A program made the position numbers and the translations under genes. A stretch of 64,000 bases of DNA, taken from NCBI RefSeq assembly GCF_001477625.1, contig NZ_CP013692.1:2170001-2234000 (forward strand), given 5' to 3'. The first letter of the stretch is position 1, and every line of letters starts with the position of its first letter. The notes under the pieces were generated by a model. It ran no database searches. It was not told the origin of the DNA and saw only the letters and a list, made by a program, of their open reading frames with translations. Source of the stretch: Paucibacter sp. KCTC 42545 (GTDB taxonomy: Bacteria > Pseudomonadota > Gammaproteobacteria > Burkholderiales > Burkholderiaceae_C). This document shows, one piece after another, positions 26,814 to 51,363 of this stretch.

Positions 26814-27771
26814 CTATTCCGCGCCAGCATCCAGCTCACGCAAAAAGGCCATTTTCTGGGCAATCTTGGCCTCCAGGCCGCGCGGCACCGGCTCGTACCA
26901 CTACGGCTCCGCCATGCCCTCGGGCAAATAACTTTCACCCGCCGCATAAGCGTGCGGCTCGTCGTGAGCATAGCGATAAGCGTGGCCGTGACCCAGCTCT
27001 TTCATCAGCTTGGTTGGCGCATTACGCAAATGCACCGGCACCTCGCGCGACTTGTCTTGCTTCACAAAGGCACGCGCCGCGTTATAGGCCTTGTAGCCTG
27101 CGTTGCTCTTGGCCGCGACGGCCAGATAAATCACCGCCTGCCCCAGCGCCAACTCGCCCTCGGGTGCACCCAAGCGCTCAAAAGTGCTGGCCGCGTCATT
27201 GGCGATTTGCATGGCACGCGGGTCGGCCAGGCCGATGTCTTCCCAGGCCATGCGCACGATGCGGCGCGACAAATAGCGGGCATCCGCGCCACCGTCCAGC
27301 ATGCGGCACAACCAGTACAGCGCGGCATCGGGGTTGGACCCGCGAACCGACTTATGCAAGGCCGAAATCTGGTCGTAGAAGTTATCACCACCCTTGTCAA
27401 AGCGGCGCGAGTTCAGGGTCAGGGCATTCTGGATGAACTCGGCATCAATCGTCTGCGTGCCGGCGGCTCCGGCGGCCGTGCTGGTTTGCTCCAGCAGATT
27501 GAGCAGGCGGCGCGCATCACCGTCGGCATAGCCCACCAAGGTGTCCAGCGCCACCGCGTCAAACTGCAGATGGGCGAGTTGCTTGCCCTGGGCCAGCGCC
27601 ACCAATTGCTTAAGCTCGTCCTCGCTGAGTGACTTCAGCACATAGACCTGGGCACGCGACAGCAGCGCGGAATTGACCTCGAAGCTGGGGTTCTCCGTGG
27701 TGGCGCCGATGAAGGTCACCAAGCCCGATTCGGCATAAGGCAGCAAGGCATCCTGCTGCGATTTATTGAAG
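26814..27771 (-). pseudogene. rarA: 3' fragment of host rarA, cut off by integration and carrying an in-frame stop
   Basis: This is the C-terminal two thirds of the host replication-associated recombination protein A (MgsA/RarA), an AAA+ clamp-loader-like ATPase acting at stalled forks. It starts at the attachment core with [17 protein letters not shown] and continues through [37 protein letters not shown] and AWEDIGLADPRAM. A TAG at 26901-26903 replaces the Gly codon expected in EPGWYEPVPRG; the homologous frame goes on to a second TAG at 26814. The start and Walker A lie 23.6 kb away at 51354-51701. Without a promoter or start codon of its own, and with the nonsense codon, it is a decaying remnant. 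GC-rich codon use matches the host and not the element. Confidence 0.93.
27762..27771. repeat. attL core repeat
   Basis: TTTATTGAAG, identical to 51354-51363. On the minus strand it is CTTCAATAAA, the rarA codons for Phe-Asn-Lys. Host rarA reading frame lies on its left and element DNA on its right. Confidence 0.88.
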
Positions 27772-27835
27772 ACAGGTAAGATCCTTTGCACTCGTTTTAA
27801 ATCAACGACTTGGAGTGCATATGAGTGGTGTAATC

Positions 27836-27918
27836 GCACAATACACCTCTTTTGATGCACAATTTTTCGCACCACAGATTTTGATTGTGCAAATTTGGGA
27901 ATGACCCGGCTTGCACAA
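27836..27918. repeat. Cluster of GCACAA(T) motifs, candidate integrase arm sites
   Basis: GCACAAT occurs at 27836-27842 and 27857-27863, inverted as ATTGTGC at 27884-27890, and as GCACAA at 27913-27918. All lie between the attL core and the integrase start. Spacing and orientation are those expected of arm-type binding sites or an autoregulatory operator. This is inferred from position. Confidence 0.5.
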
Positions 27919-28001
27919 CCCCTCAAGGGCCTCAAAAGGGATGGAAAACCACCCCGCTTGAACCGCCCCTCTAGGGACTCAAAGAACAGGAAGGATTCAC
28001 A

Positions 28002-29282
28002 GTGTCGGTCTACGCATTCAAGTACAAAGTTCTGAACAGAGAAACAGGCCGCAAGGTATCTGTCACCCGTTGGCGCGTCCAAATCCGCAAAGGTGGCGAG
28101 AACGTCAACAAGGTGTTTGACGATGAGGCTCTTGCCAGGTCATGGGAAGACCAAGAGCTTCATAGGATCAACACCGGGGTTCCCCAGAACCTCATTTTTG
28201 ACATGAAGTACCAACTTGAGATGCCTAATGTGAAGGCACTTCTCCGCGAATACTTCGACCAGTACATGAGCAAGCAGGCTGCTAGTTCGCTTAAGACGAA
28301 CCAGAATCGCTGCCTTCGTGCCATCCCCTCAATCCCTATCTATCTCAAAGACTTAGGTTCTAAGATTGACAACTACCGCTATCAAAGCACGGTAGTTGAT
28401 GCCATGTTGGGCAGGACCTACAACAAAGATTACATTGAATTCGGCCAGTTCAAAATTGACACTGTAGATTTCTGGCTCTTGATTGCATACATGGATTCAA
28501 GAAGGAGAACAGGCATCAAGAACAACACCATTCTTCGTGAAATCTCAACTATCAGTTCAGCTTTTGAAAAAGTCTACAAGCTCTATCCTGAGAAGTTCCC
28601 TAAAGGCATCATGAATCCAGTGAAGATGCTTCCACGTGGAGAAAAGCCAAAAGCTTATCTCGGACGTAAGCGGGTTCTTTCTGAAGATGAAGCTGTTCAG
28701 ATTGCAGAGTGGATGAAGCTCAAAGCCAATCAAGAACCTTACTATTTGTTTGTCACCTGCCTTGAATCTGGAGCGCGAAAAAGTGAAGTGCTAGGCGCTC
28801 AATGGGAGAACGTGAATCTTCAGCTTTGGTCCATTCACATTCCAAAAACCAAGAATGGCAAGCCAAGGGACATCATGATCCCTGAAGATGAAGATTTTCG
28901 GGAATGGCTCAAAGCAAACCGTTTGGCAAAAGGCCCTATCTTCAAGCTGACAGCTTGGAACTTTAGGCAATACTGGGTTGATGCATTGAAGGCACTTGGA
29001 CTCTATGACGACCCAGATACGCGGCTTCACTTCCATGACACCCGCCGCACTGCACTGACAAAGTTGATTCGTCAAAAGAAGTCCAATAACTTCCAGATCG
29101 CAAAGGAGATGGGTGTTTCACCTCAAACCGTTGAACAGACCATTCAGAACATGCCTGATCGTTTGTCAGAGGTGTTTGCCAAGCTCCGTTCAGGTCAATC
29201 CTTGAATGAGGAAGAGATCATGCTTCTTGCTGGTCATGGTTCCTCTTCAATGACGAATGCCTACTATGCCGACAGAAACTAA
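28002..29282 (+). CDS. Tyrosine recombinase (site-specific integrase) of the element
   Basis: A 426-residue integrase. The catalytic residues are visible: Arg259 in ESGARKSEVLGA, His345 and Arg348 in HDTRRTALT, His412 in LLAGHGSSS and nucleophile Tyr421 or Tyr422 in TNAYYADRN, nine or ten residues beyond His412. The N-terminal third is an arm-binding/SAM-like region (YKVLNRETGRKVSVTRWRVQ). The start is a GTG at 28002 with AGGAAGGA upstream. It points into the element from its left end. It presumably performs integration at the rarA core. Directionality (excisionase) genes are not recognised, although small genes downstream could act that way. Confidence 0.93.
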   Translation: MSVYAFKYKVLNRETGRKVSVTRWRVQIRKGGENVNKVFDDEALARSWEDQELHRINTGVPQNLIFDMKYQLEMPNVKALLREYFDQYMSKQAASSLKTNQNRCLRAIPSIPIYLKDLGSKIDNYRYQSTVVDAMLGRTYNKDYIEFGQFKIDTVDFWLLIAYMDSRRRTGIKNNTILREISTISSAFEKVYKLYPEKFPKGIMNPVKMLPRGEKPKAYLGRKRVLSEDEAVQIAEWMKLKANQEPYYLFVTCLESGARKSEVLGAQWENVNLQLWSIHIPKTKNGKPRDIMIPEDEDFREWLKANRLAKGPIFKLTAWNFRQYWVDALKALGLYDDPDTRLHFHDTRRTALTKLIRQKKSNNFQIAKEMGVSPQTVEQTIQNMPDRLSEVFAKLRSGQSLNEEEIMLLAGHGSSSMTNAYYADRN

Positions 29283-29330
29283 GCACGCTAAAGTTATGTC
29301 AAAAATTTATTTAAACAAGACGCAATCTAG

Positions 29331-29359: not shown

Positions 29360-29445
29360 ACATTTATCAACAAGCAAAATCACTGTAGTCGCTTGTTGAA
29401 CACCTCAAGCAACTACAGTTTTACATTCACTACTGGAGAATTTAC

Positions 29446-29922: not shown

Positions 29923-29943
29923 GCTTGACTTCATCCCAGCAGA

Positions 29944-30652: not shown

Positions 30653-31672
30653 ATGTTTGAAAGTTTTATTGAGGCATTGCCTGACAAAGTAAGAAGCACA
30701 GATGATTTTGGAGAATATGGAACAAGGTTCAGAAAGAAGAATAATGCTCTTCAATATCGTTATGTTGAACTTAATCAACTATACAAGAAATTCATAGTTC
30801 TAGATTTAGATGAGCCAAAATCAGAAAGACTAACTTTTTACAAGTTGGGCTCGGCCTTTCTTTGGGAAGAAAAAGGACTGCCACCACCCACCTATGTAGT
30901 CATCAATCCTGAAAATGCACACTGCCACTATCTCTATGAACTGAGGGTTCCTGTCTACTACACAGAACATGCCCACAGAGCACCCCAGAAGTTCTATGAG
31001 AATACCGATCTAGCTTTAACCAATGTTCTAGGGGCTGATTTAGCCTATGTTGGCAAGTTCACCAAGAACCCACTTCACCCTAGTTGGCGCACGATAAGAC
31101 ACGGGGCCTTGTATGACCTTGAGGACTTCGCTGAATACCATCTTGACCTTCATAGCCACAAACAGAAGCAAAAGCTTGCTGATTCCCTTGGTGGAAGAAA
31201 CACCACCTTGTTTGACACCCTCAGAGTCTGGGCATACCAGGAAGTCAAACAACACGGCTCTTATGCTGTATTCCAACAGCTTGTAGACAACAAGGCACTG
31301 TCTATCAATAAGCTATTCCTAGACAATTTAAATGGCATTCTTCCAGCAAAAGAAGTTCTTTCAACATCTACTTCAGTTGGCAAATGGACTTGGAAGCACA
31401 GAAACAGCATTGGTAGTGGAAATAAGAACCGAGGTGTTCTAGAGCTTCCAGATGATATGCCCATCAAGGAGAAACAGGCCCAAGGTGCAGCCTATACCAA
31501 TGTGATTAGAACTGAGTCTGTAGACGACACTATTAAGCTTGCAATCCACGCATGCGAGCAACGAGGTTTCACTTTAACATCTGGAAATTTGGAGAAATGT
31601 GGACTTGCAAGAAGTACCTTCTCCAAACACAAAGAAGCAGTTCAAAATTGGATGAGAATCCTAACTACATAA
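30653..31672 (+). CDS. Plasmid-type replication initiation protein (Replicase/PriCT family)
   Basis: A 339-residue protein. The region TYVVINPENAHCHYLYELRVP, here spanning about residues 82-102, and GADLAYVGKFTKNPLH are hallmarks of the replicase family used by ColE2-type plasmids. FDTLRVWAYQEVKQHG fits a PriCT helical domain. A helix-turn-helix appears at the C-terminus (SGNLEKCGLARSTFSKH) for origin binding. Such Rep proteins act as both initiator and primase. Presence in an integrated element points to descent from, or alternation with, a replicating plasmid. The start ATG 30653 follows AAAGGAATTT. An origin-like hairpin lies just downstream. Confidence 0.8.
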   Translation: MFESFIEALPDKVRSTDDFGEYGTRFRKKNNALQYRYVELNQLYKKFIVLDLDEPKSERLTFYKLGSAFLWEEKGLPPPTYVVINPENAHCHYLYELRVPVYYTEHAHRAPQKFYENTDLALTNVLGADLAYVGKFTKNPLHPSWRTIRHGALYDLEDFAEYHLDLHSHKQKQKLADSLGGRNTTLFDTLRVWAYQEVKQHGSYAVFQQLVDNKALSINKLFLDNLNGILPAKEVLSTSTSVGKWTWKHRNSIGSGNKNRGVLELPDDMPIKEKQAQGAAYTNVIRTESVDDTIKLAIHACEQRGFTLTSGNLEKCGLARSTFSKHKEAVQNWMRILTT

Positions 31673-33304: not shown

Positions 33305-33883
33305 TTAAAACTTCGGCTTCATCTTTGTTCCTTGGGATGTGTCACTATCGTCAATATACTTCTTCCTCATAGCCAATATCCTGTTCTCTACAACCACTAT
33401 CGGTCTATCGTAGATACTTCTCATCTCTGTAATCTTGTTCTTGTTAAAGACCTGCGGAGTCGGTTTCTTCATGGGAATGTTCTTCCCATAGTGGTACCAC
33501 TCTCTAGTGCCATCAGCACCTTCAATGGCGGGTTCACCATCGCGGTGCAACTGTCCTTCATACCACCATTGCTTCGCGCCACTGGCTGCTTCGACAGCAG
33601 GCCCATCGATACGGTGCTTATCGCCGTTTAGATACCAAGAGTAGCTACCGTCTGCATTGTCTACAGCAGGACCGTCTTCACGGTGTCTCGCTCCATTTAG
33701 ATACCACTCCTGACCGCCATCACCCCATTCAACAGCAGGGCCATCCTCTCTGTGTAGCTGCCCCATTCGGTACCAAGACTGCGTTCCGTCAGGCTCAATA
33801 CAAGCGGGACCGTCTTCACGGTGTAGCTGATCGTTGTAGTACCAAAATACTATTCCATCTTCATTGTGGCATCCATTTTTCAT
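33305..33883 (-). CDS. HREDGPA tandem-repeat protein (MORN-variant-like)
   Basis: A 192-residue protein whose first 125 residues consist of about five 23-residue repeats of the form WYxxGxxHREDGPAVxxxDG, for example WYRMGQLHREDGPAVE and WYLNGARHREDGPAVD. Such repeats resemble the MORN variants found in phage and plasmid proteins; the function is unknown. The last 65 residues are basic and non-repeated. The start ATG 33883 is preceded by GGAGGGATTT. A second, single-repeat protein lies at 35916-36164. No partner toxin is recognised next to it. Confidence 0.75.
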   Translation of the reverse strand: MKNGCHNEDGIVFWYYNDQLHREDGPACIEPDGTQSWYRMGQLHREDGPAVEWGDGGQEWYLNGARHREDGPAVDNADGSYSWYLNGDKHRIDGPAVEAASGAKQWWYEGQLHRDGEPAIEGADGTREWYHYGKNIPMKKPTPQVFNKNKITEMRSIYDRPIVVVENRILAMRKKYIDDSDTSQGTKMKPKF

Positions 33884-34680: not shown

Positions 34681-35520
34681 ATGAACCACGCAGAACAAAA
34701 AAACTTCGGAATCAATTCCCTTCACAACCTTGATGGTCAAGCCGGTCTTGCCACAGTTCCAAGCAACTTCGTTGACTTGGTATTGACTGACCCACCTTAT
34801 GGCATTGCCGACAATTCCAAGCTCACCAAGAAGGGCAGCAAAATTGTCACCACTAGCCAGGCATGGGGTTCTGACTTCCAGGATCAGTGGACAACCATTG
34901 ACGACTACTACCAATGGCTAAAACCGTTCATTGCGCAGTTCGTTCGTGTGATGAAGGACAACGGTTCAATGATTTTGTTTCTTGATCGCAAGTACACCGG
35001 TTTGATTGTTCATTACCTTGAGCAAGACTTTGACTTGAATTTTAAGAACAAGATTTACTTCAAGAAGAAGAACCCTGTCCCTAGCATTCGCAAAATCAAC
35101 TACCGATCTACGATGGAAGAGTGTGTGTGGTTCACCAAGGGCAAGCAGTACACCTTCAACTTCGGTGCTCAGTCAGAGATGTTGCAGGTCTACGAGGGTC
35201 CCATTGGAAGGAAGAAGACAGCCCACCCAACCGAAAAATACGGCTGGATGATTGAGCCACTTATCAGGAACCACACCAAGCCAGGTGGCATCGTTCTCGA
35301 TGCATTCGCCGGCTCTGCTACCACCCTAGTAGTGGCGAAGCAGCACGATCGTCATGCCATTGGCTTTGAGAAGAGTCCTGCCATGTATGAGATGGCCAAG
35401 GCCAGGATCGAGGCAGAGCAACTTGCCTTTGACTTCTACGCACCAGATGACGAACCTGCCATCGTGCGCGAGTTGGACAGGATCATGGATACCGAGTTGG
35501 CAGACTTGGTAGCAGCATAA
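34681..35520 (+). CDS. Orphan DNA methyltransferase (beta class, DPPY type)
   Basis: A 279-residue site-specific DNA methyltransferase. Catalytic motif IV DPPY lies at residues 37-40 (LVLTDPPYGIAD), and the SAM-binding motif I is at the C-terminal end (VLDAFAGSATTLVVAKQH). That IV-before-I order is the beta class of N6-adenine or N4-cytosine enzymes. HPTEKYGWMIEPLIRNHTKP is the typical linker. No restriction gene is adjacent, so it is an orphan, perhaps protecting the element against host restriction or marking it. It is preceded by a structured leader and followed 11 bp later by a small unknown gene. Confidence 0.88.
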   Translation: MNHAEQKNFGINSLHNLDGQAGLATVPSNFVDLVLTDPPYGIADNSKLTKKGSKIVTTSQAWGSDFQDQWTTIDDYYQWLKPFIAQFVRVMKDNGSMILFLDRKYTGLIVHYLEQDFDLNFKNKIYFKKKNPVPSIRKINYRSTMEECVWFTKGKQYTFNFGAQSEMLQVYEGPIGRKKTAHPTEKYGWMIEPLIRNHTKPGGIVLDAFAGSATTLVVAKQHDRHAIGFEKSPAMYEMAKARIEAEQLAFDFYAPDDEPAIVRELDRIMDTELADLVAA

Positions 35521-35891: not shown

Positions 35892-35918
35892 AAAAGCACC
35901 CATTTGGGTGCTTTTTTA
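35892..35918. terminator. Bidirectional terminator
   Basis: AAAAGCACCCA pairs with TGGGTGCTTTT, followed by T residues. It lies between the convergent 118-residue gene and the small repeat-protein gene. Confidence 0.85.
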
Positions 35919-36164
35919 TTTGAACCTCATTGAATCAAGGTGAACTACCTTTCTTTTATTCAATATTTCGTCAATCTCAGGCGTAAGGGTTTTGTGAAGC
36001 TCTAGCATGGCAGCATTCACTAAACATCCTTCAAACCAGTATTCTTCAATTCGATTCTCAGCACTACCTTTGATGACAGCAGGCCCATCCTCACGGTGAA
36101 GCAGTCCGCTCTTCCTCCAGGTCTTCACAGTGTTGTCGACCACACACTTCAATTCTGGCTTCAT
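35916..36164 (-). CDS. Small HREDGPA-repeat protein
   Basis: An 82-residue protein with one unit of the repeat seen at 33305-33883 (SGLLHREDGPAVIKG, then EYWFEGCLVN), followed by a helical tail (LHKTLTPEIDEILNKRK). Function unknown. The start ATG 36164 has GGGAG upstream. The two copies in one element suggest a conserved role, or that one derives from the other. Confidence 0.65.
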   Translation of the reverse strand: MKPELKCVVDNTVKTWRKSGLLHREDGPAVIKGSAENRIEEYWFEGCLVNAAMLELHKTLTPEIDEILNKRKVVHLDSMRFK

Positions 36165-36716: not shown

Positions 36717-38552
36717 CTACTTGCCTACATCGAACTGTAAGACTTCTTCAAAAACTCTGTTGCGGGCCTTCGCATCCTTGATCAACGCAGAGGCGGGCAT
36801 AACATATAGATGAAGGGGAATTTCATTGTTGCTTCCAATGAGGTAATCATTGTAGACAACCCTTTGATTCAAGGAAAATACATCCTTGAAGCCTGTTTGC
36901 TTCATGTCTCTATAGAAGGCATCATCGATTTCTACTACTGAGAAGGCAAATACTTCCAACACAGTAGGGATTCGTTCTGCAAGCTCACTGGCATAGAGCC
37001 TGCATTGCATGAGAGCCTTATTGTTTTCAAAAATGTCAGCACCCGGCTTTTTGAACTCAATGATTACTAATTTATTGGGATGATTTTCATCATCCTTTGA
37101 GAAGAAAGCGGCAACATCAGGACGACGCTGTTGCTTGACCTCCATAACATTTCCGACCTCTTGAATAATCGTTGCCAAGGTCTGGTCACTGTAGATGTTG
37201 GAATAAGACAAAAACTTGTCGTCAACCAGCCAAACATTGTTTTCTCTGATTTCACTGCCATCGCTACGCTTGGGAAGAATCGCATTGTGCAAGGCATCTT
37301 CTGCACTACTGGGAGGCATCTTGGCAAGTGAATCAATCACCAAAGCACGGTGAACAATGAAACGAGCCAAGTCTTCACTCGCCAGGTGCGAGACGTCATC
37401 CCAAGAAACAGGCCGACCGCTATCAAGTGCATCGACAAGCTGATCTTCATTTTTAGCTTGTTGGGCTCTATAGGTCTTAACAACCTCATCCGCATCCAAC
37501 AGAGCGGCATTGCCACCCAAAGAATCGAGCTTGATGAATGGGTAGTACTTCTTCAGCTTTTCAATATTTTGACTCTTAAACTGATCAACATCGCCTTCCG
37601 CAGCTTCGTCAATCATCTTCATGCATTCCTCATGAATGCGAGGGGTCAGTTTTTCCCGACTGATAGGTGAAACCATATCAACGTCTTCATCCGTCTTCGG
37701 AAGTTCTAGGCGTTGACGTTCAATGTTGGACCGCTTGTTAAAGTATTCCGATGTTACAAATATCAAATGGCGACAAATGTCGAATCGCCTGCTGATAACG
37801 TATTCTTCAATACATAGCTCATCAGCACAAAGCATTGCTACAATGCCTTTTCGGGGCGGCTCATCTCGGAATAAGTAGCAGTTAAATTTCTCACCCAGAA
37901 ATTCAAACTCTCGCGTCAATTCAGCCTTGATTGAATCACCTGAAACAGTGTAATTCTCATCAAAAGGTTGCCGCGAATTGTGGGTGAACTTCAGAGTAAT
38001 GCTATGACCAGCCTGATGCTTGAGAAAAAGAAGAAGACGGAGATCATCACAAATGGCATTCACCAACTTTGTGACTTGGGTGTTGATCTTCTCTTTTAGC
38101 TCCATGAGCGTAATGCTTGTACTTACGCTGCCATCAACGGCTGACTTCTTAACGTCGTCTAACTTGAACTCAGGTGTGTAGTCAAACTCCACTAGCTCAC
38201 TAGAAAGTTGGCTCCTAATCTTGACAGATTTTGCATATTTAAGAAATGCCAACCGTCCAACCCCTTTGCCCCCAATGCTGTCTTTGTGACCAGTACAGAC
38301 TTCATCAAAGAAGTTCAGATTTTCAGAGGTAAAGCCTTCACCATCATCAACAATAGTGATTGTTTCAAGAACCCTTCGCTCTTCACTGCCAGGATTTATT
38401 TCTTGTTGCCTCTCCGAGAAATAAAGGTCAACGGAAATATTCTTACTTCCAGCATGAATCGAATTTGTTAATGCTTCTCGAATTACATCACGAGCACTAA
38501 CACCACCTTTATAGTGTTCTGCGATGAACTTTCTTAGATTGATTCTTGCCAT
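36717..38552 (-). CDS. GHKL ATPase fused to a PD-(D/E)XK-like nuclease domain, candidate defence protein
   Basis: A 611-residue soluble protein. The N-terminal third is a GHKL (gyrase/Hsp90/MutL) ATPase: Glu26 and Asn30 in REALTNSIHAG, D69-D70-G-E-G-F, and the lid glycines 94-99 in SIGGKGVGRLAFLKY. The C-terminal part holds RRPDVAAFF and, about 17 residues later, LVIIEFKKPGADI near residue 500, which matches the Asp and Glu-x-Lys of PD-(D/E)XK nucleases. A middle region (REKLTPRIHEECMKMID) is helical. Prokaryotic GHKL ATPases of MORC type are known in restriction neighbourhoods. Start 38552 follows GTGGAG. I infer an antiphage or anti-plasmid role; no experimental homologue is identified. Confidence 0.7.
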   Translation of the reverse strand: MARINLRKFIAEHYKGGVSARDVIREALTNSIHAGSKNISVDLYFSERQQEINPGSEERRVLETITIVDDGEGFTSENLNFFDEVCTGHKDSIGGKGVGRLAFLKYAKSVKIRSQLSSELVEFDYTPEFKLDDVKKSAVDGSVSTSITLMELKEKINTQVTKLVNAICDDLRLLLFLKHQAGHSITLKFTHNSRQPFDENYTVSGDSIKAELTREFEFLGEKFNCYLFRDEPPRKGIVAMLCADELCIEEYVISRRFDICRHLIFVTSEYFNKRSNIERQRLELPKTDEDVDMVSPISREKLTPRIHEECMKMIDEAAEGDVDQFKSQNIEKLKKYYPFIKLDSLGGNAALLDADEVVKTYRAQQAKNEDQLVDALDSGRPVSWDDVSHLASEDLARFIVHRALVIDSLAKMPPSSAEDALHNAILPKRSDGSEIRENNVWLVDDKFLSYSNIYSDQTLATIIQEVGNVMEVKQQRRPDVAAFFSKDDENHPNKLVIIEFKKPGADIFENNKALMQCRLYASELAERIPTVLEVFAFSVVEIDDAFYRDMKQTGFKDVFSLNQRVVYNDYLIGSNNEIPLHLYVMPASALIKDAKARNRVFEEVLQFDVGK

Positions 38553-40778: not shown

Positions 40779-41327
40779 CCTGCCCCCTCCCGCCGTACCA
40801 GCCATGCGGAAGTCCGGGTTGAAGGTTACTTGATCTCGTTGCGTGTAGCCGGTGGCGCCTGGTTCTTGGTGCGGTGGCGCTGCGCGAACTCGGCCGGCGG
40901 TATCCGACCCAGGCTGCTGTGCGGCCTCACCTCGTTGTAGTCCTGCCGCCAGATGGCGATCTCCGAGCGCGCCTGCGGCAGCGTCTGGAACCAGTGCTCG
41001 TTCAAGCACTCGTCGCGGAACTTGCCGTTGAAGCTCTCGATGTAGCCGTTCTGCATGGGCCGCCCTGGCTGGATGAGGATGTGCCGCACGTCGTGAGCTT
41101 GCGCCCAAGCGATGAAGGCCCGGCAGGTGAACTCCGGCCCGTTGTCGGTTCTCACCGCCGCAGGGTAGCCCCTGAAGATCGCGGCCCGGTCCAGCAACCG
41201 CGTCACGTACTGGCCCGAGATGCCGTAGTCCACGGCGATGTCCACACACTCGTGCGTGAAGTCGTCGGCCACAGTCAGGCACTTGATACGCCGGCCATTG
41301 GCCAGGCTGTCGGAAACGAAGTCCATG

Positions 41328-41333
41328 CTCCAC
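41328..41333. repeat. IS21 target duplication (left copy)
   Basis: CTCCAC, identical to 43993-43998 on the other side of IS21. On the minus strand it is part of the Trp-Ser codons of orfB. Confidence 0.75.
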
Positions 41334-41508
41334 TGCGTATTTCAGCCCATCCCGGCCACCCATTTCAGCGGAACGCGGACAGCGTTTCAGACGAAGGCGG
41401 ACACCATTTCAGGCTGATCGCGGACAGCGTTTCAAACTGATCCCGGACACCCCTGGCGCGCGCAAGTGACCTGAGCCGTAGGCATGCTGACCGATTTTTC
41501 GGTCCGTC

Positions 41509-43059
41509 ATGCCCACTCCCAGGATTCACATGCGCCAACTTCGACAAACCCTTCGACTTCACCTTGAATCTGGCCTGAGCATGCGCGAGTGTTCGCGCGT
41601 GCTTGGCATCGCCAAGTCGACCGTCAATAGCGTCGTTATGAAGGCCCGCGCCGCCGGTGTGGACTGGGCCGCCGCCCAGACGCTGGACGATGCCGCCTTG
41701 GAGGCTCGCTTGTACGGCCCCGCTGTGCCTCGGTCCAGCACCCAGCTTGAGCCCGACTTCGCCCTCGTCCACCAGGAACTCAAGCGCCCCGGCGTCACCT
41801 TGCAATTGCTCTGGGAGGAGTACCAGCGCGGTCTGACCGACGCCGGCTCGCAAGCCTACAAGTACACCAGCTTCTGCGTGAAGTACCGCGCCTGGGTCAC
41901 CGGCCTCAAGCGCTCGATGCGCCAGGTCCACCCGGCCGGCGAGCGCCTGTTCATTGACTACGCCGGCCAGACTGTGCCCTTGGTGGACGCTGCCACCGGC
42001 GAGATCCGGCAAGCGCAGATCTTCGTGGCCGTCCTCGGCGCCTCGAACTACACCTTCGCCTGCGCCACGCCGACACAGACAGCAGCCGACTGGGTCGGCG
42101 CCATCATGGATGCGCTGGAGTTCATGGGTGGCGTGCCCCGGCTGATCGTGCCGGATCAGGCGCGCGCCCTGATCGCCCGGCCCGACCGCTACGAGGCCAC
42201 GCCTAGCCGTCTGGTCGAAGAGTTCTGCGACCACTACGACGTGGCGATGCTGCCCGCGCGTCCTGCTCATCCCCGCGACAAGCCCAAGGTGGAGGTCGGC
42301 GTGCAAATCGTCGAGCGTTGGATTCTGGCGCGGCTGCGGCACCGGCGCTTCTTCACCCTGGCTGAGCTCAACGCCGCTGTCCGGGAGTTGCTGGTGGACC
42401 TGAACGCTCGGCCGTTCAAGAAGCTACCCGGCTGTCGGGCCAGCGCCTTCGCGGCCTTGGATCGGCCGCTGCTCAAACCCCTGCCGGCAGCGCGCATGCC
42501 CATCGCCCGCTTCAAGCGCGCCCGGGTCAATATTGACTATCACGTTGAACTCGATGGCCATTACTACAGCGTGCCGCACCGGCTGGTGCGCGAGCAGGTC
42601 GAGTTGCGCATCACTTCGACCACGGTGGAGATTCTGGCGGGCCAGCAACGCGTGGCCGTGCACGCCTACAGCGTCCGGCGCGGGGCGCACACGACGGCGC
42701 CCGAGCACATGCCGGCCTCCCACCGGGCGCACCGAGAGTGGACCCCAGCCAAGCTCATCGCTTGGGGTGAGCACATCGGCGTGGCCACAGCCGCCGTGGT
42801 GCGCTGGCAGATGGAACACCGGCCGCACCCCGAGCAAGGCTACCGCTCCTGCCTCGGCCTGCAAAGCCTGGCGCGCCAGTTCGGCCACGAGCGGCTGGAA
42901 GCGGCCTGCGTTCGCGCCATGTCGATTCGCTCGCCGACCTACCAAAGCGTCAAGTCGATCCTGGCCACCGGCTTGGACCGGCAAGCCGCGCCGGCCCAAG
43001 CCACGCAGGCCGCACTCCCGCTGCATGACAACGTGCGCGGCCCCGATTACTACCACTGA
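41509..43059 (+). CDS. istA: IS21-family transposase IstA
   Basis: A 516-residue DDE transposase. The N-terminal helix-turn-helix is [20 protein letters not shown]. Catalytic residues are Asp150 in [11 protein letters not shown], Asp216 in [10 protein letters not shown] and Glu262 in [12 protein letters not shown]. The C-terminal region includes [18 protein letters not shown], typical of IstA. Intact; it is followed by istB after 23 bp. Confidence 0.93.
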
Positions 43060-43082
43060 CCCCACTGAAGAAGGAGAAGCTC

Positions 43083-43820
43083 TTGCTCAACGAACACACC
43101 CTGGATCAACTGCGCAGCCTGCGCCTAGACGGCATGGTGCAGGCGCTTACCGATGGCGCCACCCGCACGGCAGCGGCCGAGCTGTCCTTCGAGGAGCGGC
43201 TGGCCATGCTGGTGCAACGCGAGGTCGATTGGCGCGACGGCAAACGCCTGGCCCGGCTGCTCAAGGCGGCCAAGCTCAAGGTCAGCAGCGCCTGCATCGA
43301 GGACATCAACTGGCGAGGCTCGCGCGGGCTGGATCGCAGCCTCATCACCCAACTGGCGGGCTGCGACTGGCTGCGCCACGGCCACAACGTGTTGCTCACC
43401 GGGGCCACGGGTTGCGGCAAGACCTGGCTCGCATGCGCGCTGGCCCAGCAGGCGGCACGCCAGGGATTCGCGGTGTTGTACACGCGGGCGCCGAGGCTGC
43501 TGGAAGAGCTGCGGGTGGCCCACGGCGACGGCTCCTTCGGCCGGCGCCTGGCACAACTGGCGCGCATTGACCTGCTGGTCATCGATGACTTTGCGATTGC
43601 ACCGGTCACGGCGGCCGACCGTAACGACCTGCTGGAGTTGCTCGACGACCGGGTCGGCAGCCGCTCGACGCTCATCACCAGTCAGCTACCCGTCTCAAAC
43701 TGGCACCAATGGTTGGATGACCCGACATTGGCCGATGCCATCTTGGACCGGATCGTCCATTCGGCACAAAAGATCGCGCTCAAGGGCGAGTCGCTGCGCA
43801 AGAAACAGGACTCGGTATGA
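43083..43820 (+). CDS. istB: IS21-family transposition helper ATPase IstB
   Basis: A 245-residue AAA+ ATPase that selects targets for IstA. Walker A is [17 protein letters not shown] and Walker B is [15 protein letters not shown]. The start is TTG 43083 with GAAGGAG upstream. Intact. Confidence 0.93.
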
Positions 43821-44350
43821 GCACCAAACCAACCACCGCAGAACCGTCCGGGCCAGCCCAATTCAGGCTGATCGCGGACACCTGAGCTACCATCAACCCA
43901 GGCACTTGCGCGCACCCAAACTGTCCGCGATCAGTTTGAAACGCTGTCCGCCATCACGCTGAAATGACTGTCCGGGATCGCTGAAATCCGCACTCCACAC
44001 CTCATTGACTCGGGTCGGCACGGTGAGCGGCACGCGCTCGCTGGCTGCCCGTCTGATCTTCTTGCGCTTGCGCACCGCCAACTGCGCCTGGCTGTACAAC
44101 CGATAGACGCGCTTGTGATTGACGCCTGGGAACTGTGGGCGCAGCACGTCATGGATGCGGCGATAGCCGAAGCGGCGCCGCACCTGTGCGATCTCGACGA
44201 TCTTGGCGCTGAGTTGCTGCGTGGCCTCATCGACCACGGGCGGGTTGCGATAGCTGTCTCTGGAGAGCCCCACCAGGCGGCACGCGCGGCGTTCGGACAG
44301 ATGGTGCTGGGCAATCATCTGGGTCGCCGCGTCGCGCCTGACCTGCGGGG

Positions 44351-44617
44351 CTAGGGCTTTACGCCGAAGACGTCCTTGAGCGCGTGGATGTCCAGGTGGG
44401 CCTCTGCCAGCAGGCGCTTGAGCTTGGCGTTCTCGCCTTCGAGCTCGCGCAGTCGCTTGGCATCCGTGGCCTGCATGCCGCCGTACTTGGCCCGCCACTT
44501 GTAGAACGTGGCGTCGCTGAAGCCGCCTTGCCGGCACAGCTCCTTGATCGGCATGCCGGCCTCGGCCTGCTTCAGGAACCCAATGATTTGTTCCTCAGTA
44601 AATCTGCTCTTCTTCAT
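44351..44617 (-). CDS. IS3-family transposase OrfA
   Basis: An 88-residue helix-turn-helix protein (MKKSRFTEEQIIGFLKQAEA, then GFSDATFYKWRAKYGGM) with a leucine-zipper-like helix at the C-terminus. It is intact, but its partner orfB is broken. In-frame ATGs at 44623 and 44626 are also possible. Confidence 0.88.
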   Translation of the reverse strand: MKKSRFTEEQIIGFLKQAEAGMPIKELCRQGGFSDATFYKWRAKYGGMQATDAKRLRELEGENAKLKRLLAEAHLDIHALKDVFGVKP

Positions 44618-44685
44618 GTCCATCATTCTCCTGGTTGATGGACTTCCTCTCCATTACGCTGGTACGGCTGGGAGGGTGCAGGTCA

Positions 44686-45310
44686 CCGCGTCAAAATTCT
44701 TGAGTGTGACAAGGCGATCAGCATCTAACGAAGTCCGGGCAGTCCTAGAAGCTGTCGCTAGAAGTTCGTTCAAGCTCTGCGCTTCGGTCAGCTTGGCTAA
44801 TGCTGTTCCAGCGGCCCAAGATAACTGCTTTTCACTGAACGCACCAATTAAGCCAACACTTACCTTGGCTCTGTCAGCTTGCTTGAATTGCACACCTTCA
44901 GGCGTCCGATCAGTAACGACGATCCACTTGGGCTCCAATTCCTTGCCGACAGTTAGGCGAACCGTCAGGACAGATTCAAGGTGGTCATCTGATTCATCAG
45001 TGAGCTTCTGGGTGGTTTTATCCCAGCCACGTTGATGATGGCCATACTTTTGATCGGAACAAAACTCAGGAGTCAAATCACCAAGGGTGACTTCGATGAC
45101 TATGCCGTTATCCACCTTACACTGATAAAAATCAGCATCAGTAAATATTGGGTTCCACTGAGGATAGAAGGCATAGCGAAGCGCCTCCAAAATTGTGGAT
45201 TTGGACGAATCACCTTTTCCAATTAGGCAGAAAATTTCGGCTGCTGGCAAACTCCAATCAAGCTCTTTAATACCCCGAAAATTTTTGATAGAAATTTTTC
45301 TAATTTTCAT
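44686..45310 (-). pseudogene. OLD/AAA-family ATPase gene, truncated by the IS3 element
   Basis: The first 208 residues of an SMC-like ATPase survive. KIRKISIKNFRGIKELDWSL opens the protein and GKGDSSKSTILEALRYAF is the P-loop of the OLD/RecF type (the final Gly of the loop is Ser, as in several such proteins). The 3' part, which in OLD-family nucleases carries the Toprim domain, is missing. The frame runs 31 bp into the IS. It is probably a broken defence or repair gene. Confidence 0.8.
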
Positions 45311-45505: not shown

Positions 45506-48217
45506 TTACAATGCCTCAATCAGCTTCAGCACATCACCAGTGGTATGAGCCCCGTCAATCGGGTTGCTCTCAAAAACCATCATGTAGTGATAGCGGTAGC
45601 CTGTTTCATGCGCAATTTGGTTAGCTTGGGACTCCCAAATCTTGCCAAGCTTCAGCTTGTCCTTGGAGTCAGAGTTATCCCTATCATCACCCTTGGTTTC
45701 CACCACAATGATGTTCTTGCTCTCAGTGAGAACAATGAAGTCAGGGTAGTGATTAAGGAAACCATTCAGCAAGAACCCCTTGCCCCGTTCAAGGTTTCTG
45801 TGCCACCAGACAATGTTTTCCAGTTCTGCAACACCACGGATAACCTTGCTCTCCAAGTTATTCACACTACCTTCAGTGACATAAAGGCTCTTGCTGATAG
45901 CAGGAGCATTTTCACTTGGAGCAATCCAAGCAGGCAACGAGAATGACGGACGAAGTTTGATTTTCTGAGTGGTCAGCCAGTTGCCAAATTCCTTAGCAGC
46001 ATACTCATTGGCAAGGCTCTGTATCTTGTCCTTAATGAGCTTGACATACGCATAATCACGCTCAAGGCAATCAGCACGTAGATCAGCATTCATGGCCTCA
46101 ACAATTCGTTTGAGGTAGTGCTTAACATCGTTGTCTTCAATTGGGTAGAAACTGTTCTTACCAATTAGGCTGAAGAGCCGACCAACGATAGAGGTGATTT
46201 GACCTGAAGTCGGTTGACTCTTGATGATGCTGTTCAGCTTTTCCTTTTCTGCCTTCTTCACTACAGTGAAAGATGGAGCACTTTCACCATTACCAATTTC
46301 TTCTGCATCTACCTTATAGACATCCGATTCAATGGCTGTGAAATTGATAGTGGCATCGAGGTTTGCCAACACAAAGTTGGACAGCAAGTTTTCTTTAGCC
46401 AACTTGTGCCACTCATCACCACTGTCAAAGAACCCACCATCAGAGGGCAACTTGATGAAGAACTGGGGTAGCTGAATTGCCTTTGCAGACTCTTCAAACT
46501 TCTGCTTCATCTTATGCTCGTTCATATGGGCCTTCAGTTCTTCAGGAACAGATTCACCACTCGTAGCATTGGCCTGTTCTTCAAATTCTTTAGCTTGTTC
46601 AGCAGCCTGATTCTTGATTGCTTCAACACCTGTTGCATCACTGCCAGTTGAGGCAGGCTGATCGCCATTTGGGGCTATAGCAGCTTGCTCCACAGCTTGT
46701 TGTTCCCAGTCAGGATTGAGCTTGCTCTTCTCAATTTCAAGATCCTGGCCATCACCAGTTTCAGCAGGCTTTTCCTCACCCGTTTGAGCAGCAAGGTTCA
46801 GCTCTTCTTGAGCAGGTGTTGGAGTTGGTTTTTGTTCCTGCTCAATCGCAGACAGATCAAATTCTCTGTAGTCGCGCTTTGAGAAACCAGCCTTGTTCAA
46901 ACCCGCAACCACCTGACTCAAAGTGTTTTGGAAGTGGCTGGACGAGGTAAACACATAGCTCAAGTTGAGTAGCTCAATGCTGTGCTTTCTGGTGTAAGGC
47001 ATACGCAGCACACGACCCAAAATTTGAGTCACATCCACCACAGAAGACTTGTTTGCCAGTGTCGCAAGCACATAGGCAAAAGGACAGTCCCAACCCTCTT
47101 TCAGCGCATTGACTGTGATGATGTATCGCACTGAGCAATCACGACTCATCAAATCAACATTCTTCAACTCGTTGATGTTGGCAGTCTTGATGGCAATGTG
47201 TTCTTTGGGAATGTTCAGATCCAACAGAATTTCACGCACCTTCTCAAATGTGGTGGTGTCATCCTTGTTCTTCGGTTCAGCCTGGAACAGCACGATGGGG
47301 CGAATGTAGCCACCACCCTTCTCTTCGGCTTTTTTAGCAAACTCTTCCAACTGACGCCGCATATTCAGGGCCGCCATGATCACATCTTCTTGGCTTCGTT
47401 GATTGGCAACAATCACAGGAAGCTTGACCATGTTTTGCTTCTTGAGTCGCAGGGCATCAACATAGCTGATGATGTTGCTGTTATCTCGTGGTGTAGCAGT
47501 CAGGTCAAATATGAAACTTGGGTTGAGGTTGCGAAGCATGTCCACTGACAACGTGCTTTCTGCATTGTGGCTTTCATCCACAACCACAATCGGCTTGAGA
47601 GTCCGCATGACATTGATGAGCGCAGAGGGATCGGTTCCTTCCAATGGCTCAACAACTTCACCGTCATCATTCAAAAACGAAGCAAGGTAGCCGTTTTCTT
47701 GAAACGCTTTGCGGTTCTCTTTGTTGGTGGCCTTGAGTGAGTCAAACGACATCACCACCACTGAAAGTTGCTCCTTCACAGTGTCCGCATTGAACCCTGC
47801 ACCCTGAAGGACATCAGCCTTCTCGTAAATCTGCACACGACCATTGAACAGGTCATTCAATCGCTGACGATATGGGTGATCGATGTTGGACAGGTTCTTT
47901 ACTGTCTGTTCAAGGATGGTCAGTGAAGGAACCAGCCACACCACGAACTTAGGACGTGTGGGGTTGTATTCAGCAAAGGCAGAAAAAATTCTGTCCAAGG
48001 CATTCACTGCAATGAAGGTTTTTCCGCCAGCAGTGGGAACCTTCACACATACATGAGGCACCTCCTTGATGTTGTTCTTGTATGCCTGATTGAGAACACC
48101 ACGATCTTTCCAATACTTGATAAAAGCATTGGGAAGATGACCCTTGCATTCAAGCAGGGTTTCCAGATATGTACTGAGGTCAGTCAGGACATCAGCTTGA
48201 TAGTCTTTGAGTTCCAT
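45506..48217 (-). CDS. res: Type III restriction enzyme, Res subunit
   Basis: A 903-residue superfamily 2 helicase-nuclease. Walker A is VPTAGGKTF (61-68), the DEAH-type box is VVVDESHNAE, motif III is FDLTATPRD and motif VI is TQILGRVLRMPYTR. A Glu/Ala/Gln-rich stretch at about 470-600 is a flexible insertion. The endonuclease domain at the C-terminus has Asp826 in YPDFIVL and Glu840-x-Lys842 in VVETKGDD. Res cuts DNA after ATP-driven translocation when two sites are unmodified, and needs Mod. It starts 9 bp after the mod stop. Confidence 0.93.
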   Translation of the reverse strand: MELKDYQADVLTDLSTYLETLLECKGHLPNAFIKYWKDRGVLNQAYKNNIKEVPHVCVKVPTAGGKTFIAVNALDRIFSAFAEYNPTRPKFVVWLVPSLTILEQTVKNLSNIDHPYRQRLNDLFNGRVQIYEKADVLQGAGFNADTVKEQLSVVVMSFDSLKATNKENRKAFQENGYLASFLNDDGEVVEPLEGTDPSALINVMRTLKPIVVVDESHNAESTLSVDMLRNLNPSFIFDLTATPRDNSNIISYVDALRLKKQNMVKLPVIVANQRSQEDVIMAALNMRRQLEEFAKKAEEKGGGYIRPIVLFQAEPKNKDDTTTFEKVREILLDLNIPKEHIAIKTANINELKNVDLMSRDCSVRYIITVNALKEGWDCPFAYVLATLANKSSVVDVTQILGRVLRMPYTRKHSIELLNLSYVFTSSSHFQNTLSQVVAGLNKAGFSKRDYREFDLSAIEQEQKPTPTPAQEELNLAAQTGEEKPAETGDGQDLEIEKSKLNPDWEQQAVEQAAIAPNGDQPASTGSDATGVEAIKNQAAEQAKEFEEQANATSGESVPEELKAHMNEHKMKQKFEESAKAIQLPQFFIKLPSDGGFFDSGDEWHKLAKENLLSNFVLANLDATINFTAIESDVYKVDAEEIGNGESAPSFTVVKKAEKEKLNSIIKSQPTSGQITSIVGRLFSLIGKNSFYPIEDNDVKHYLKRIVEAMNADLRADCLERDYAYVKLIKDKIQSLANEYAAKEFGNWLTTQKIKLRPSFSLPAWIAPSENAPAISKSLYVTEGSVNNLESKVIRGVAELENIVWWHRNLERGKGFLLNGFLNHYPDFIVLTESKNIIVVETKGDDRDNSDSKDKLKLGKIWESQANQIAHETGYRYHYMMVFESNPIDGAHTTGDVLKLIEAL

Positions 48218-48226: not shown

Positions 48227-49897
48227 TTAGAATCGTGTGATGTCACGTGGAATGCGCTTGAATGTGATGCCGTGCTTGTAAAGGAAATCCTTATCCAAAG
48301 CACACTTGTCGGCGTAAATCACAAACTGTTCAGGCCTGGACGGTAGATCCTTGATTTTCAGTTGTCCGAGAAAATCAATGTCAAGCGTCGTCACGCGATC
48401 CTTCTCATAGAAGAAGACACATAGCGCCGTTTCTGTTGCACCTAAAGCATAGGGACTCACAGGATTATCTGAAGTGAGCCGCTTCTCCTTCGGAATGTTT
48501 TCTGTGTAAGCCACATAGTCTCTAATGGCTTCTGCACCAACTTCTTCATTGAGGTTCTTGTCCTCTTTAAACAGAGTCGGTCCAAGGTCATAGAAGTCAA
48601 ATCCGCCACCAGTACCAGCAACAAACTTCGTATCCTGCCCATACCCATTGATGACACGGCGAACGCGTTCAGCAGTGACCTCTTCGGCGTAATCCATCAT
48701 TTCGCACAGAATGAATTGGCGGCGGCCACCATCCTGTGAATTCAATTTAAGAACTGCTTGTGCAGTGGTTCCGCTACCACCAAAAGAATCAAGAACTATG
48801 GCTTCGTCGTTGTCACAAAGTTCTAAGCAATCAACAATCAAATCTACAGGCTTAGGGAATTCAAACTGAGACGCAAGACCAAGACGGCCAAGTTCAGTTG
48901 TGCCTTGCTCACTGATGTATTTGGTTTCTGTCCAGATGGACTTAGCTTTGACCGTTTCTTTTCTGTACTTCTCAAAAACACGCCAAGCTCCTTCACGAGT
49001 TTGACGCGCATACAAAAATTCTGTAGTCGCAGCCTTGGTCTTAAGGGTGAACTTTTCTTTCCCCCACCGCCAACAACTCTCTACACCCTCACTATTGAAC
49101 GGCTCGATCTTGAAGGAGTCAGGGTGCTCTTCTAATGAAACAATGTAGTTTCCGCTTTCGTCAACTATGCCAGGGCGGGCATAGATCGGATAGAAGAGAT
49201 TTGGACGATTAAAGCGACCAAATTTGGGATTACGGTTACGAAGCTCTCTTGAAGAGAAAGAACCAAATTTATCTTTTTCTGGAAGATTAGTCCCTTCTGT
49301 AGATAACTCTCCAAGTTCAGACAAAGAACTCTTACCAAAGCAAAGAAGGTATTCGTGAGTCTTGGCAATTTGCTTGTATGTCTGTCCGCGTTTGTTTGAC
49401 TGAACAATGATTTGAGCCAAGAAGTTTGACTCTCCAAATATTTCATTCATCAACAGGCGAAAATGAAATATTTCGTTATCGTCAAGACTAACGAAAATTA
49501 CGCCATCTGAAGCCAGGAGGCGATGCAAAAGCTTCAACCTTGGGTACATCATGCAAAGCCACTTGTCATGACGACTCAGATCCTCCCCTTCCTTCTTAAC
49601 GACTTCACCAAGCCATTTTTTGATCTTTGGGTGATTCACTGCATCGTTATAGGCCCAACCTTCATTACCAGTGTTGTATGGCGGATCAATGTAGATGCAG
49701 TTGACCTTCCCCTCGAATTCTGGCAACAAGCTTTTTAGGACTTCAAGATTGTCGCCGTGAATAATTCGATTGTTTTCTGTATTCTCTTGTCCTTCAACAG
49801 TTGCAGTGAAGCTATATTTCTTATTCAGCAAACGAAAGGGAACGTCATAGTGGTGGTTAACCACTGCGCTCTTTCCTACCCAGTGCAGTGTTGGCAT
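48227..49897 (-). CDS. mod: Type III DNA methyltransferase, Mod subunit
   Basis: A 556-residue adenine-N6 methyltransferase. Motif IV DPPY is at 71-74 (CIYIDPPYNTGNEGWAYND) and the SAM motif is VLDSFGGSGTTAQAVLKLN. The large middle region between them is the target-recognition domain. Mod recognises the site for both methylation and restriction. It is the first gene of the mod-res operon, about 70 bp downstream of the element's rarA on the same strand. Confidence 0.93.
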   Translation of the reverse strand: MPTLHWVGKSAVVNHHYDVPFRLLNKKYSFTATVEGQENTENNRIIHGDNLEVLKSLLPEFEGKVNCIYIDPPYNTGNEGWAYNDAVNHPKIKKWLGEVVKKEGEDLSRHDKWLCMMYPRLKLLHRLLASDGVIFVSLDDNEIFHFRLLMNEIFGESNFLAQIIVQSNKRGQTYKQIAKTHEYLLCFGKSSLSELGELSTEGTNLPEKDKFGSFSSRELRNRNPKFGRFNRPNLFYPIYARPGIVDESGNYIVSLEEHPDSFKIEPFNSEGVESCWRWGKEKFTLKTKAATTEFLYARQTREGAWRVFEKYRKETVKAKSIWTETKYISEQGTTELGRLGLASQFEFPKPVDLIVDCLELCDNDEAIVLDSFGGSGTTAQAVLKLNSQDGGRRQFILCEMMDYAEEVTAERVRRVINGYGQDTKFVAGTGGGFDFYDLGPTLFKEDKNLNEEVGAEAIRDYVAYTENIPKEKRLTSDNPVSPYALGATETALCVFFYEKDRVTTLDIDFLGQLKIKDLPSRPEQFVIYADKCALDKDFLYKHGITFKRIPRDITRF

Positions 49898-49966
49898 AAA
49901 TCTATCTTTTTATAAGTCACTGGCAAGTTTGCACCAGTGAATGTTTATCGGAATTCGTTTGAATTT

Positions 49967-51268
49967 TTATTCCCCGGCTTCCTCATCCCACTTCCGCAGG
50001 AGAGCAAGCTTTTCAGCAATCTTAACTTCAAGCCCTCTGGGCACTGGCTGATACCAACCCGGTTCTTCTATGCCTTCAGGAAGATAGGTTTCACCAGCAG
50101 CATAGGCATTGGGTTCGTCATGAGCATATCGGTAGTCATGCCCATAACCCAGTTCCTTCATGAGCTTCGTTGGAGCATTGCGAAGATGAACAGGAACCTC
50201 CCGGCTCTTGTCTTGCTTCACAAAGGCTTTAGCTTGGTTGTAGGCGTTGTAGCCAGCATTGCTTTTGGCAGCTATAGCCAAATAGATGACAGCTTGCCCC
50301 AAGGCTAATTCACCTTCAGGACTACCCAACCGTTCATAGGTCAATGCAGCATCATTAGCTATCTGCATAGCCCTTGGATCAGCAAGTCCGATGTCTTCCC
50401 ATGCCATGCGAACAATGCGCCGTGCCAGATACCTTGCATCAGCACCACCGTCCAACATTCTTGTCAGCCAATAAAGGGCAGCATCAGGATGGGAGCCACG
50501 CACCGACTTGTGCAAGGCTGAAATCTGGTCATAAAAGTTGTCCCCACCCTTGTCAAAGCGACGACTGTTCAGGGTCAAAGCATTCTGCAAGAAGTCAGCA
50601 TTAATTGCCGTGATTCCAGAGGCTTCGGCTGCTGTACTGGTCTGCTCCAACAGGTTCAAGAACCTTCTGGCGTCCCCATCTGCATAGCCAATTATCGTGT
50701 CTCTAGCCAGGTCATCAAACTGAAGATGGCCAATGGCAAGTTCTTGAGCGCGAACAAGCAGCAGCTTCAGTTCTTCGTCAGTCAGCGATTTCAAGACATA
50801 GACCTGAGCCCGCGACAACAAAGCCGAATTCACTTCAAAAGAAGGGTTCTCAGTAGTAGCACCAATGAAGGTGACTAGCCCACTTTCGGCATAGGGAAGA
50901 AGTGCATCTTGTTGGGACTTATTGAACCTGTGAATTTCGTCTACGAACAAGATCGTGTGCTTGCCCATAGAAAGGTTCTGTTGTGCCTGCTCCATAGCAC
51001 CACGGATGTCTTTGACACCAGAGAACACCGCAGACAAGGCAATGAACTCGCACTTGAAGGCTGTAGCTGTGAGGCGTGCCAAAGTGGTTTTACCAACACC
51101 CGGCGGCCCCCAGAAGATCATGGAATGGGGTTTGCCTGACTGGAAGGCAAGTCTCAAAGGCTTACCTTCACCCAGCAAGTGCGACTGCCCGACCACCTCG
51201 TCCAAGGTCTTTGGACGAAGTGCTTCAGCCAGTGGTGCGGAGGGCTCTTGTGCGAACAAATCAGCCAT
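49967..51268 (-). CDS. rarA: Complete replacement RarA carried by the element
   Basis: A 433-residue full-length AAA+ ATPase of the RarA/MgsA family, which works at stalled replication forks with SSB and the clamp loader. Walker A is GPPGVGKTT (from 54), Walker B is ILFVDEIH, and the attachment-equivalent site FNKSQQDALL follows at 115. The C-terminus is intact (EEPGWYQPVPRGLEVKIAEK). The protein is very like the host RarA, but codon use is AT-richer, so DNA identity is lower. The start ATG 51266-51268 overlaps the stop of the host-element fusion ORF (GGCTGA), and GGGGGTGA lies upstream. It should therefore be translated by coupling from the host transcript. Confidence 0.95.
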   Translation of the reverse strand: MADLFAQEPSAPLAEALRPKTLDEVVGQSHLLGEGKPLRLAFQSGKPHSMIFWGPPGVGKTTLARLTATAFKCEFIALSAVFSGVKDIRGAMEQAQQNLSMGKHTILFVDEIHRFNKSQQDALLPYAESGLVTFIGATTENPSFEVNSALLSRAQVYVLKSLTDEELKLLLVRAQELAIGHLQFDDLARDTIIGYADGDARRFLNLLEQTSTAAEASGITAINADFLQNALTLNSRRFDKGGDNFYDQISALHKSVRGSHPDAALYWLTRMLDGGADARYLARRIVRMAWEDIGLADPRAMQIANDAALTYERLGSPEGELALGQAVIYLAIAAKSNAGYNAYNQAKAFVKQDKSREVPVHLRNAPTKLMKELGYGHDYRYAHDEPNAYAAGETYLPEGIEEPGWYQPVPRGLEVKIAEKLALLRKWDEEAGE

Positions 51269-51353
51269 GCTTCACCCCCATTGAACAATGGGGAAGCACA
51301 AGTAATTGCACAAACGCCTTCCTAAGTTGTTGATTTATATATGACTTGACAGC

Positions 51354-51363
51354 TTTATTGAAG
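51354..51363. repeat. attR core repeat
   Basis: TTTATTGAAG, identical to 27762-27771. Host rarA 5' sequence continues on its right, element sequence on its left. Confidence 0.88.

Follow-up and report, generated by a model that had tools for sequence, protein, structure and literature searches.

A Paucibacter integrative island that interrupts rarA and carries a complete rarA of its own

The split host rarA and the complete copy in the island

A stretch of 64,000 nucleotides from Paucibacter sp. KCTC 42545 (contig NZ_CP013692.1, positions 2,170,001 to 2,234,000 of the forward strand; hereafter the window, from whose first letter coordinates are counted unless another genome is named) was found to hold a tyrosine-recombinase element of 23.6 kb (27762-51363) that splits the host rarA gene inside its AAA+ domain and has a complete, diverged rarA of its own at the right end. 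The minus-strand host gene is interrupted after the residues HRFNK, just past Walker B. Sequence matches place the N-terminal half, which holds Walker A and Walker B only, at 51354-51701, and the C-terminal half, from about residue 119 on, lies at 26814-27771. The sequence TTTATTGAAG forms the attL core at 27762-27771 and the attR core at 51354-51363, and these are its only two copies in the window, where shuffling gave an expectation of 0.05. In 10 related genomes, attL falls at the same codon position. The original prediction, that rarA is cut at a 10-bp core repeated at both ends just after Walker B, therefore stands for this genome, whereas the core common to the relatives is only about 8 bp, TTCAAnAA, from which those labelled G105, G949 and G187 depart by single bases, and the outer bases vary. 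Two 13-nt sequences inside the ends, AAGTCGTTGATTT near attL (27799-27811, minus strand) and its inverted partner AAGTTGTTGATTT near attR (51324-51336, plus strand), form the pair AAGTYGTTGATTT, which occurs twice in the window against 0.13 expected for a pattern picked after viewing the ends; these are putative arm sites of the integrase.

The two host halves rejoin in frame, as predicted, and the host protein joined by script was 97.4% identical over 426 residues to that of an intact rarA from a same-genus genome. The C-terminal half, however, carries an in-frame stop at 26901-26903, at which every other ungapped aligned rarA row, intact rows included, has an amino acid, so that full-length host RarA is not expected from simple excision. 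Decay of the C-terminal half was also considered for G949, on the basis of a reported TGA, and was dropped, as the joined G949 sequence has no internal stop. Compared with an intact relative, the host halves in the window gave ratios of nonsynonymous to synonymous substitution rates (dN/dS) of 0.01 and 0.03, and because they keep such low values the insertion in this genome is recent on the dN/dS scale. The source genome is a single contig of 5.17 Mb in which, beyond the three rarA pieces, the only matches were two that were both short and weak, at E 3e-10 and 1e-4. Among 17 other genomes sampled from the genus, 15 had a single rarA match spanning nearly the whole query (E<=1e-60) and 2 had none.

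The complete rarA of the element (49967-51268, minus strand) has the same direction as the host gene and encodes 433 residues, of which 5-430 match the solved RarA chain 3pvs (E 9.8e-141); like the solved protein, it has both the AAA+ and the C-terminal domain in full length. Its Walker A, Walker B and GATTENPS motifs are retained. It shares 85.0% protein and 71.5% DNA identity with the joined host gene, in agreement with the prediction of a full-length, host-like RarA at the right end in host orientation. The predicted recoding was borne out as a lower GC content at third codon positions (GC3), 0.51 for the element gene versus 0.79 for the host gene. Across genomes, GC3 ranged from 0.32 to 0.63 in 13 element copies and from 0.71 to 0.95 in 11 joined hosts; for host N-terminal halves alone it was 0.87 in G288 and 0.61 in G187.

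The integrase family and its rarA target

At the left end of the element lies a gene with a GTG start for a tyrosine recombinase of 426 aa (28002-29282, plus strand; PF00589, E 5e-13). Its family was found in 13 distinct genomes, the source genome included. A host rarA C-terminal half stands beside the integrase in all 13 (as decayed pieces in G106), and a full-length rarA stands beside the host N-terminal half, on the same strand, in each of the 11 genomes in which both ends could be read. Integrase identity to the source protein ranged from 41 to 97%, and the rarA target was kept even at 41-46% (G039 and G1159). The prediction that relatives of the integrase would lie beside a duplicated rarA was thus confirmed in every two-ended genome, and its counterexample, the same integrase at another target without rarA, was sought among the family genomes found and did not occur.

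The family is compact. When the 7997 candidates sharing most words with the integrase were scored from a database of 5.8 billion proteins, 55 proteins matched at E<=0.001, of which 51 did so at 1e-71 or better and the other 4 at 1e-15 or worse. One genome-contig scan returned 8 integrase relatives among 20 pattern matches. In a sample of 98 relatives plus the source genome, strong integrase matches were found in G034 and G039; weak matches to tyrosine recombinases were common (29 of 99 at E<=0.001), and 3, the source genome's own included, were better than 1e-12, the rest being weaker than 1e-11. At E<=1e-40, a sample of 399 genomes of the order returned the source genome alone, one of 399 genomes of the family returned it together with G034, G039 and G796, and one of 392 genomes of the family of G105 returned G105, G104, G949 and G1159. 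G796 and G102 share the same rarA contig place, presumably represent one genome and were counted once. A class-wide sample of 340 genomes gave 2 matches at E<=1e-20, namely the source genome and a distant catalytic-domain match with no rarA within its 1.5-kb flanks. Viral contigs contained no relatives having the integrase, also when a 13-row alignment was used, and among 72,556 plasmid records none carried the integrase at >=60% identity, the 2265 records that matched all lying below 60%.

The element RarAs were then compared with each other and with their hosts. Those of the ten other two-ended genomes are 84.9-98.8% identical to the element RarA of the source genome, and all eleven are 64.3-90.3% identical to the joined halves of their own hosts. 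By these values, the gene mostly travels with the element, and does so across genera. Copies at 98.4-98.8% identity to that of the source genome come from loci named Comamonas suwonensis (G100), Limnohabitans lacus (G099) and Limnohabitans sp. (G103), whose host rarA differs from the element copy beside it by about one third. In nine pairs of element rarA genes dN/dS was 0.018-0.085, and this strong purifying selection indicates that the gene is kept functional. As a possible sign of recoding for immunity, the attB codons were compared between element and host rarA; their divergence exceeded that of the gene as a whole in 10 of the 11 pairs, though only slightly and over 6-8 codons.

The attR junction and proposed expression of the island gene

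At attR, the reading frame of the host N-terminal half continues into the element and forms a leader cistron of 146 aa (51261-51701, minus strand), the TGA of which overlaps the start codon of the element rarA. The 86-nt spacer from the 8-bp core to this start codon (51269-51354, minus strand) is open in the host frame, and the 8-nt stop/start overlap ATGGCTGA (51261-51268, minus strand) recurs at an identical offset in 12 of the 13 attR junctions compared. This set consists of the junctions of the 11 two-ended genomes and of G288 and G187, which were found via rarA. Between the end of the TTCAAnAA-type core and the ATG lie 86 nt in nine junctions, 98 nt in two and 110 nt in two, each length being 2 mod 3. 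In 12 junctions the host frame runs open through the spacer and ends at a TGA that shares bases with the start codon (ATGnnTGA); the exception, G187, has its stop 11 nt upstream of the ATG. Stops interrupt the two remaining frames in every junction (26 of 26). In mononucleotide shuffles of single spacers, from sequences that are related, the host frame was open in 7-21% of trials. Because the TGA belongs to codons 2-3 of the element gene (Met-Ala-Asp in most), the features on which selection could act are the frame of the spacer and its openness. We read the conserved open frame as selection for translating the truncated host rarA up to the new start codon. This frame, which the original prediction overlooked, is the most informative feature of the locus.

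The host genes directly upstream of the N-terminal half are lolA (51720-52349, minus strand; PF03548, E 8e-46) and, upstream of it, ftsK (52363-54726, minus strand; FtsK domains in Pfam). lolA precedes the N-terminal half in 8 of the 10 two-ended relatives and was not seen in the stretches examined for G100 and G039. Transcription from upstream fits this order, as the N-terminal half comes after lolA and ftsK.

Taken together, the element is probably an integrative island that recombines at the middle of rarA and supplies a whole replacement rarA coupled to host expression. Judged from these sequences, its integrase would act between a core of 8-10 bp and the conserved codons for HRFNK that lie midway along the chromosomal rarA. 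Integration breaks the host gene, and the complete rarA in the same orientation at the attR end would make the break harmless. Host transcription of the ftsK-lolA-rarA region would continue through the truncated rarA leader, the 146-aa fusion would be translated to the TGA overlapping the element ATG, and ribosomes would re-start there, so that RarA production might come close to the level normal for the host, whatever species is entered. The host halves would afterwards be free to decay, as the stop in the C-terminal half of the source genome suggests, and the host would be tied to the element copy.

Several observations weigh against parts of this proposal. No complete element rarA was found in 2 of the 13 family genomes, namely G102, a metagenome-assembled genome with the C-terminal half only, and G106 (Candidatus Burkholderia pumila), where rarA and the integrase survive as decayed pieces. 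The 13 junctions share ancestry and do not constitute 13 independent tests, and among three spacer lengths both differences would be multiples of three with a chance of about 1 in 9. The spacer also holds the integrase arm-like repeats, a separate constraint on its sequence. Upstream of the element ATG stands GGGGGTG, resembling a Shine-Dalgarno (SD) sequence, and the element rarA might therefore be translated independently. In a 67-row rarA tree the element copies did not form one clade (8 label changes versus a shuffle mean of 12.2), and the element copies of G949 and G187 (EL_G949 and EL_G187) grouped with host-type RarAs, so that element rarA has been exchanged at times. Finally, the host halves still show low dN/dS, and entrenchment by their decay is therefore at most beginning.

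Part of this evidence favours the strongest alternative, in which whole-gene replacement occurs, but the element rarA uses its own promoter and ribosome-binding site and the open attR frame is a by-product of ancestry and arm-site constraints. SD-like sequences do precede the ATG in many copies, and the nine spacers of one common length have much sequence in common. This account, which we regard as rather unlikely, is at odds with the length changes of 12 and 24 nt that preserve the frame, and with a host frame that is stop-free in all junctions except G187, and even there remains open until 11 nt before the ATG, while the other frames are always stopped. A scan of 51240-52400 for sigma-70-like promoters returned no match, which speaks against an own promoter and is weak evidence, since 0.3 matches were expected by chance.

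It is less probable still that rarA is cargo in itself, serving replication of the element or working with restriction systems, with its location in the host rarA being secondary. All 11 two-ended members do carry the gene, restriction-modification genes follow it directly in four of them (the source genome, G034, G100 and G105), and phages have RarA-like proteins, which were found in 155 of 50,697 phage records, all at <60% identity to the element RarA. However, when 21 genes of the window were compared with 11 relatives, the integrase and rarA alone matched in all ten two-ended ones; the target is always rarA, and the copy always lies at attR, oriented like the host gene. An assembly artefact, or an accidental one-off insertion beside a rarA duplicate, is hardly credible and is refuted by the recurrence of the arrangement in 11 genomes, the source genome itself being one contig.

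Elements of this family may also leave their rarA allele behind. In G187 (1703-3476) and G288 (1539-3288), the host N-terminal half, the spacer and an element-type rarA follow one another; no rarA C-terminal half was found at E<=1e-20, and on the side where it would lie both contigs break off no more than 4 kb from rarA. Both genomes apparently belong to the order sample, in which only the source genome had the family integrase at E<=1e-40. They may be what was left when the remainder of the element was lost, or may reflect contig breaks. Some intact rarA genes nest among the element copies in the tree. G010, of the same genus, has a single intact rarA at the native locus (2782-4077). At sites that differ between the host and element genes of the window, it sides with the host by 29:11 over the first 200 bases of the alignment, with the element by 180:67 between 300 and 1300, and leans to the host again in the last 60 bases (11:6). 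Its contrast of +0.45 is the largest of 43 intact rows, the next being +0.16; values in the opposite direction reach -0.34, so that other mosaics or chance patterns exist. Of three initial controls, one was host-like throughout, one switched oppositely and one was mixed. The rarA of G010 is likely a mosaic, with a host start and an element body, in which recombination left the element allele behind, although ordinary recombination between relatives might give such a pattern. A reading of all intact rarA genes of 90-93% identity as remnants was rejected, only G010 being clearly mosaic; those of G199, G243 and G143 may be no more than relatives of the source of the element gene. As a separate observation, Burkholderia lata (G101) has on another contig a second full-length rarA (3087-4367), 67% identical and on a very long tree branch.

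More tentatively, and with less confidence than we place in coupled replacement as such, these patterns may point to a third integration strategy, namely whole-gene substitution with an in-frame translational relay, in which the integrase would target the conserved middle of an AAA+ gene, host promoter and leader would set the dose of a core gene carried by the element, the host copy would decay, and recombination or partial loss would leave the element allele as sole rarA. If this is true, elements of this kind would carry rarA alleles from one species to another and entrench themselves.

Cargo of the island and relation to known systems

Between the integrase and rarA, the window encodes a replication initiator of the Replicase family (30653-31672, plus strand; PF03090, E 1e-33, with a PriCT_1 match below cut-off), an N6/N4-type DNA methyltransferase (34681-35520, plus strand; PF01555, E 7e-41), a MobC/NikA-like mobilisation protein (39712-40128, plus strand; PF21983 and PF05713) and a 217-aa N-terminal fragment of a relaxase (40125-40778, plus strand; NF047848 MbeA relaxase, well below cut-off), after which insertion sequences follow. 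Homologues of both MobC and the relaxase occur in 6 of 11 compared relatives. Directly downstream of the element rarA lie a type III methyltransferase (48227-49897, minus strand; PADLOC MTase_III, E 7e-166) and a type III restriction enzyme subunit (45506-48217, minus strand; PADLOC REase_III, E 4e-73). Scanning of selected proteins from the elements of the relatives revealed Eco29kI-type genes in G105, Eco57I/NgoFVII-type genes in G101, a type III enzyme in G039, and MmeI, a coupling protein, a TrwC relaxase and an ArdC-like protein in G1159. By its gene content the element group looks like mobilisable defence islands, and intact relatives of the element are probably mobilisable.

Several further features were recorded within the cargo. 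An IS21 istA/istB pair (41509-43820, models above cut-off), within 40779-44653, separates the relaxase fragment from a GajA-like fragment, and is flanked by transposase-domain pieces (rve at 40826-41326 and HTH_Tnp_1 at 44351-44626) which we take to be IS3-like. The GajA-like fragment (44654-45310) has 218 aa, matches Gabija GajA over its first 209 residues (E 3e-79), is probably a truncated defence gene, and is 98% identical over 208 residues to a region of G100. A 628-aa HATPase-domain protein (36717-38603) has an 87% identical relative in G034 and no match in the defence library. Two proteins contain HREDGPA-type stretches (33305-33883 and 35916-36164), and the longer of them was matched in 8 of the 11 elements compared and gave no Pfam hit. 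A tRNA-Ala (agc) reported by ARAGORN at 42796-42877, inside the IS21 istA, is probably a false call.

Elements that target genes are described, in the part of PMC10111431 covered here, as carrying a replacement part in attP or as making the interruption regulated; in that of PMC4482086, dusA islands replace the 5′ end of their target, and in that of a review of integrative and mobilizable elements (IMEs; PMC5704250), target ends are kept or dispensable genes are disrupted. Integrating elements in these portions of the literature thus restore a target end or disrupt the target, and a family bringing a whole substitute rarA would be a different solution. Among the entries listed in a search of the open-access literature, judged by title, abstract start or term counts, there was no report of rarA as an integration target or of a whole-gene substitute for a target, and rarA was searched for and not found in PMC12884075. 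Such a family would offer a route by which alleles of a core gene are replaced between species with no selection acting on the gene itself, and the element rarA is a possible anchor against loss of the element. In Burkholderiales genomes, rarA annotated as duplicated or split may mark such islands.

The element resembles end-restoring islands and prophages (at dusA, and at tRNA, icd and similar sites) in its single tyrosine integrase, its site in a conserved gene and the kept function of the target, as far as these are described in the sections of PMC4482086 and PMC10111431 covered. In those islands, the replacement end is fused to the surviving part of the host gene, whereas here rarA is cut in mid-gene, neither half is reused, and the element brings a complete gene as a separate unit. 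An attP fragment that completes the target by fusion, as in the dusA type, is not what the junction holds, since the fusion open reading frame has 146 aa and the separate complete rarA follows it. Regulated gene integrity elements are alike in interrupting a target whose parts can be rejoined in frame (PMC10111431, in the same portion). Such elements leave no working copy while integrated, whereas a complete rarA is present in all 11 two-ended genomes and is under purifying selection in nine pairs. In the gerE case of regulated gene integrity, the interruption is reportedly undone by excision. No on/off control of RarA is expected here, because the complete copy is present during integration.

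Strand-biased circularizing integrative elements, as partly surveyed, are likewise integrative and use site-specific recombinases. They have a multi-gene recombinase module, unlike the single integrase at the end of this island. With IMEs the element group shares the integrase, a replication gene, MobC and a relaxase in several members, and defence cargo. It has its own site-specific recombinase and att sites; as to the relaxase expected of an IME, the window has MobC and a relaxase fragment cut short beside insertion sequences, and G1159 has the TrwC relaxase and coupling protein. The element differs from the IMEs in the covered part of the review (PMC5704250) in supplying a whole-gene substitute. 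Substitution of the whole target gene may thus be a variant of integrative islands whose strategy deserves a name of its own.

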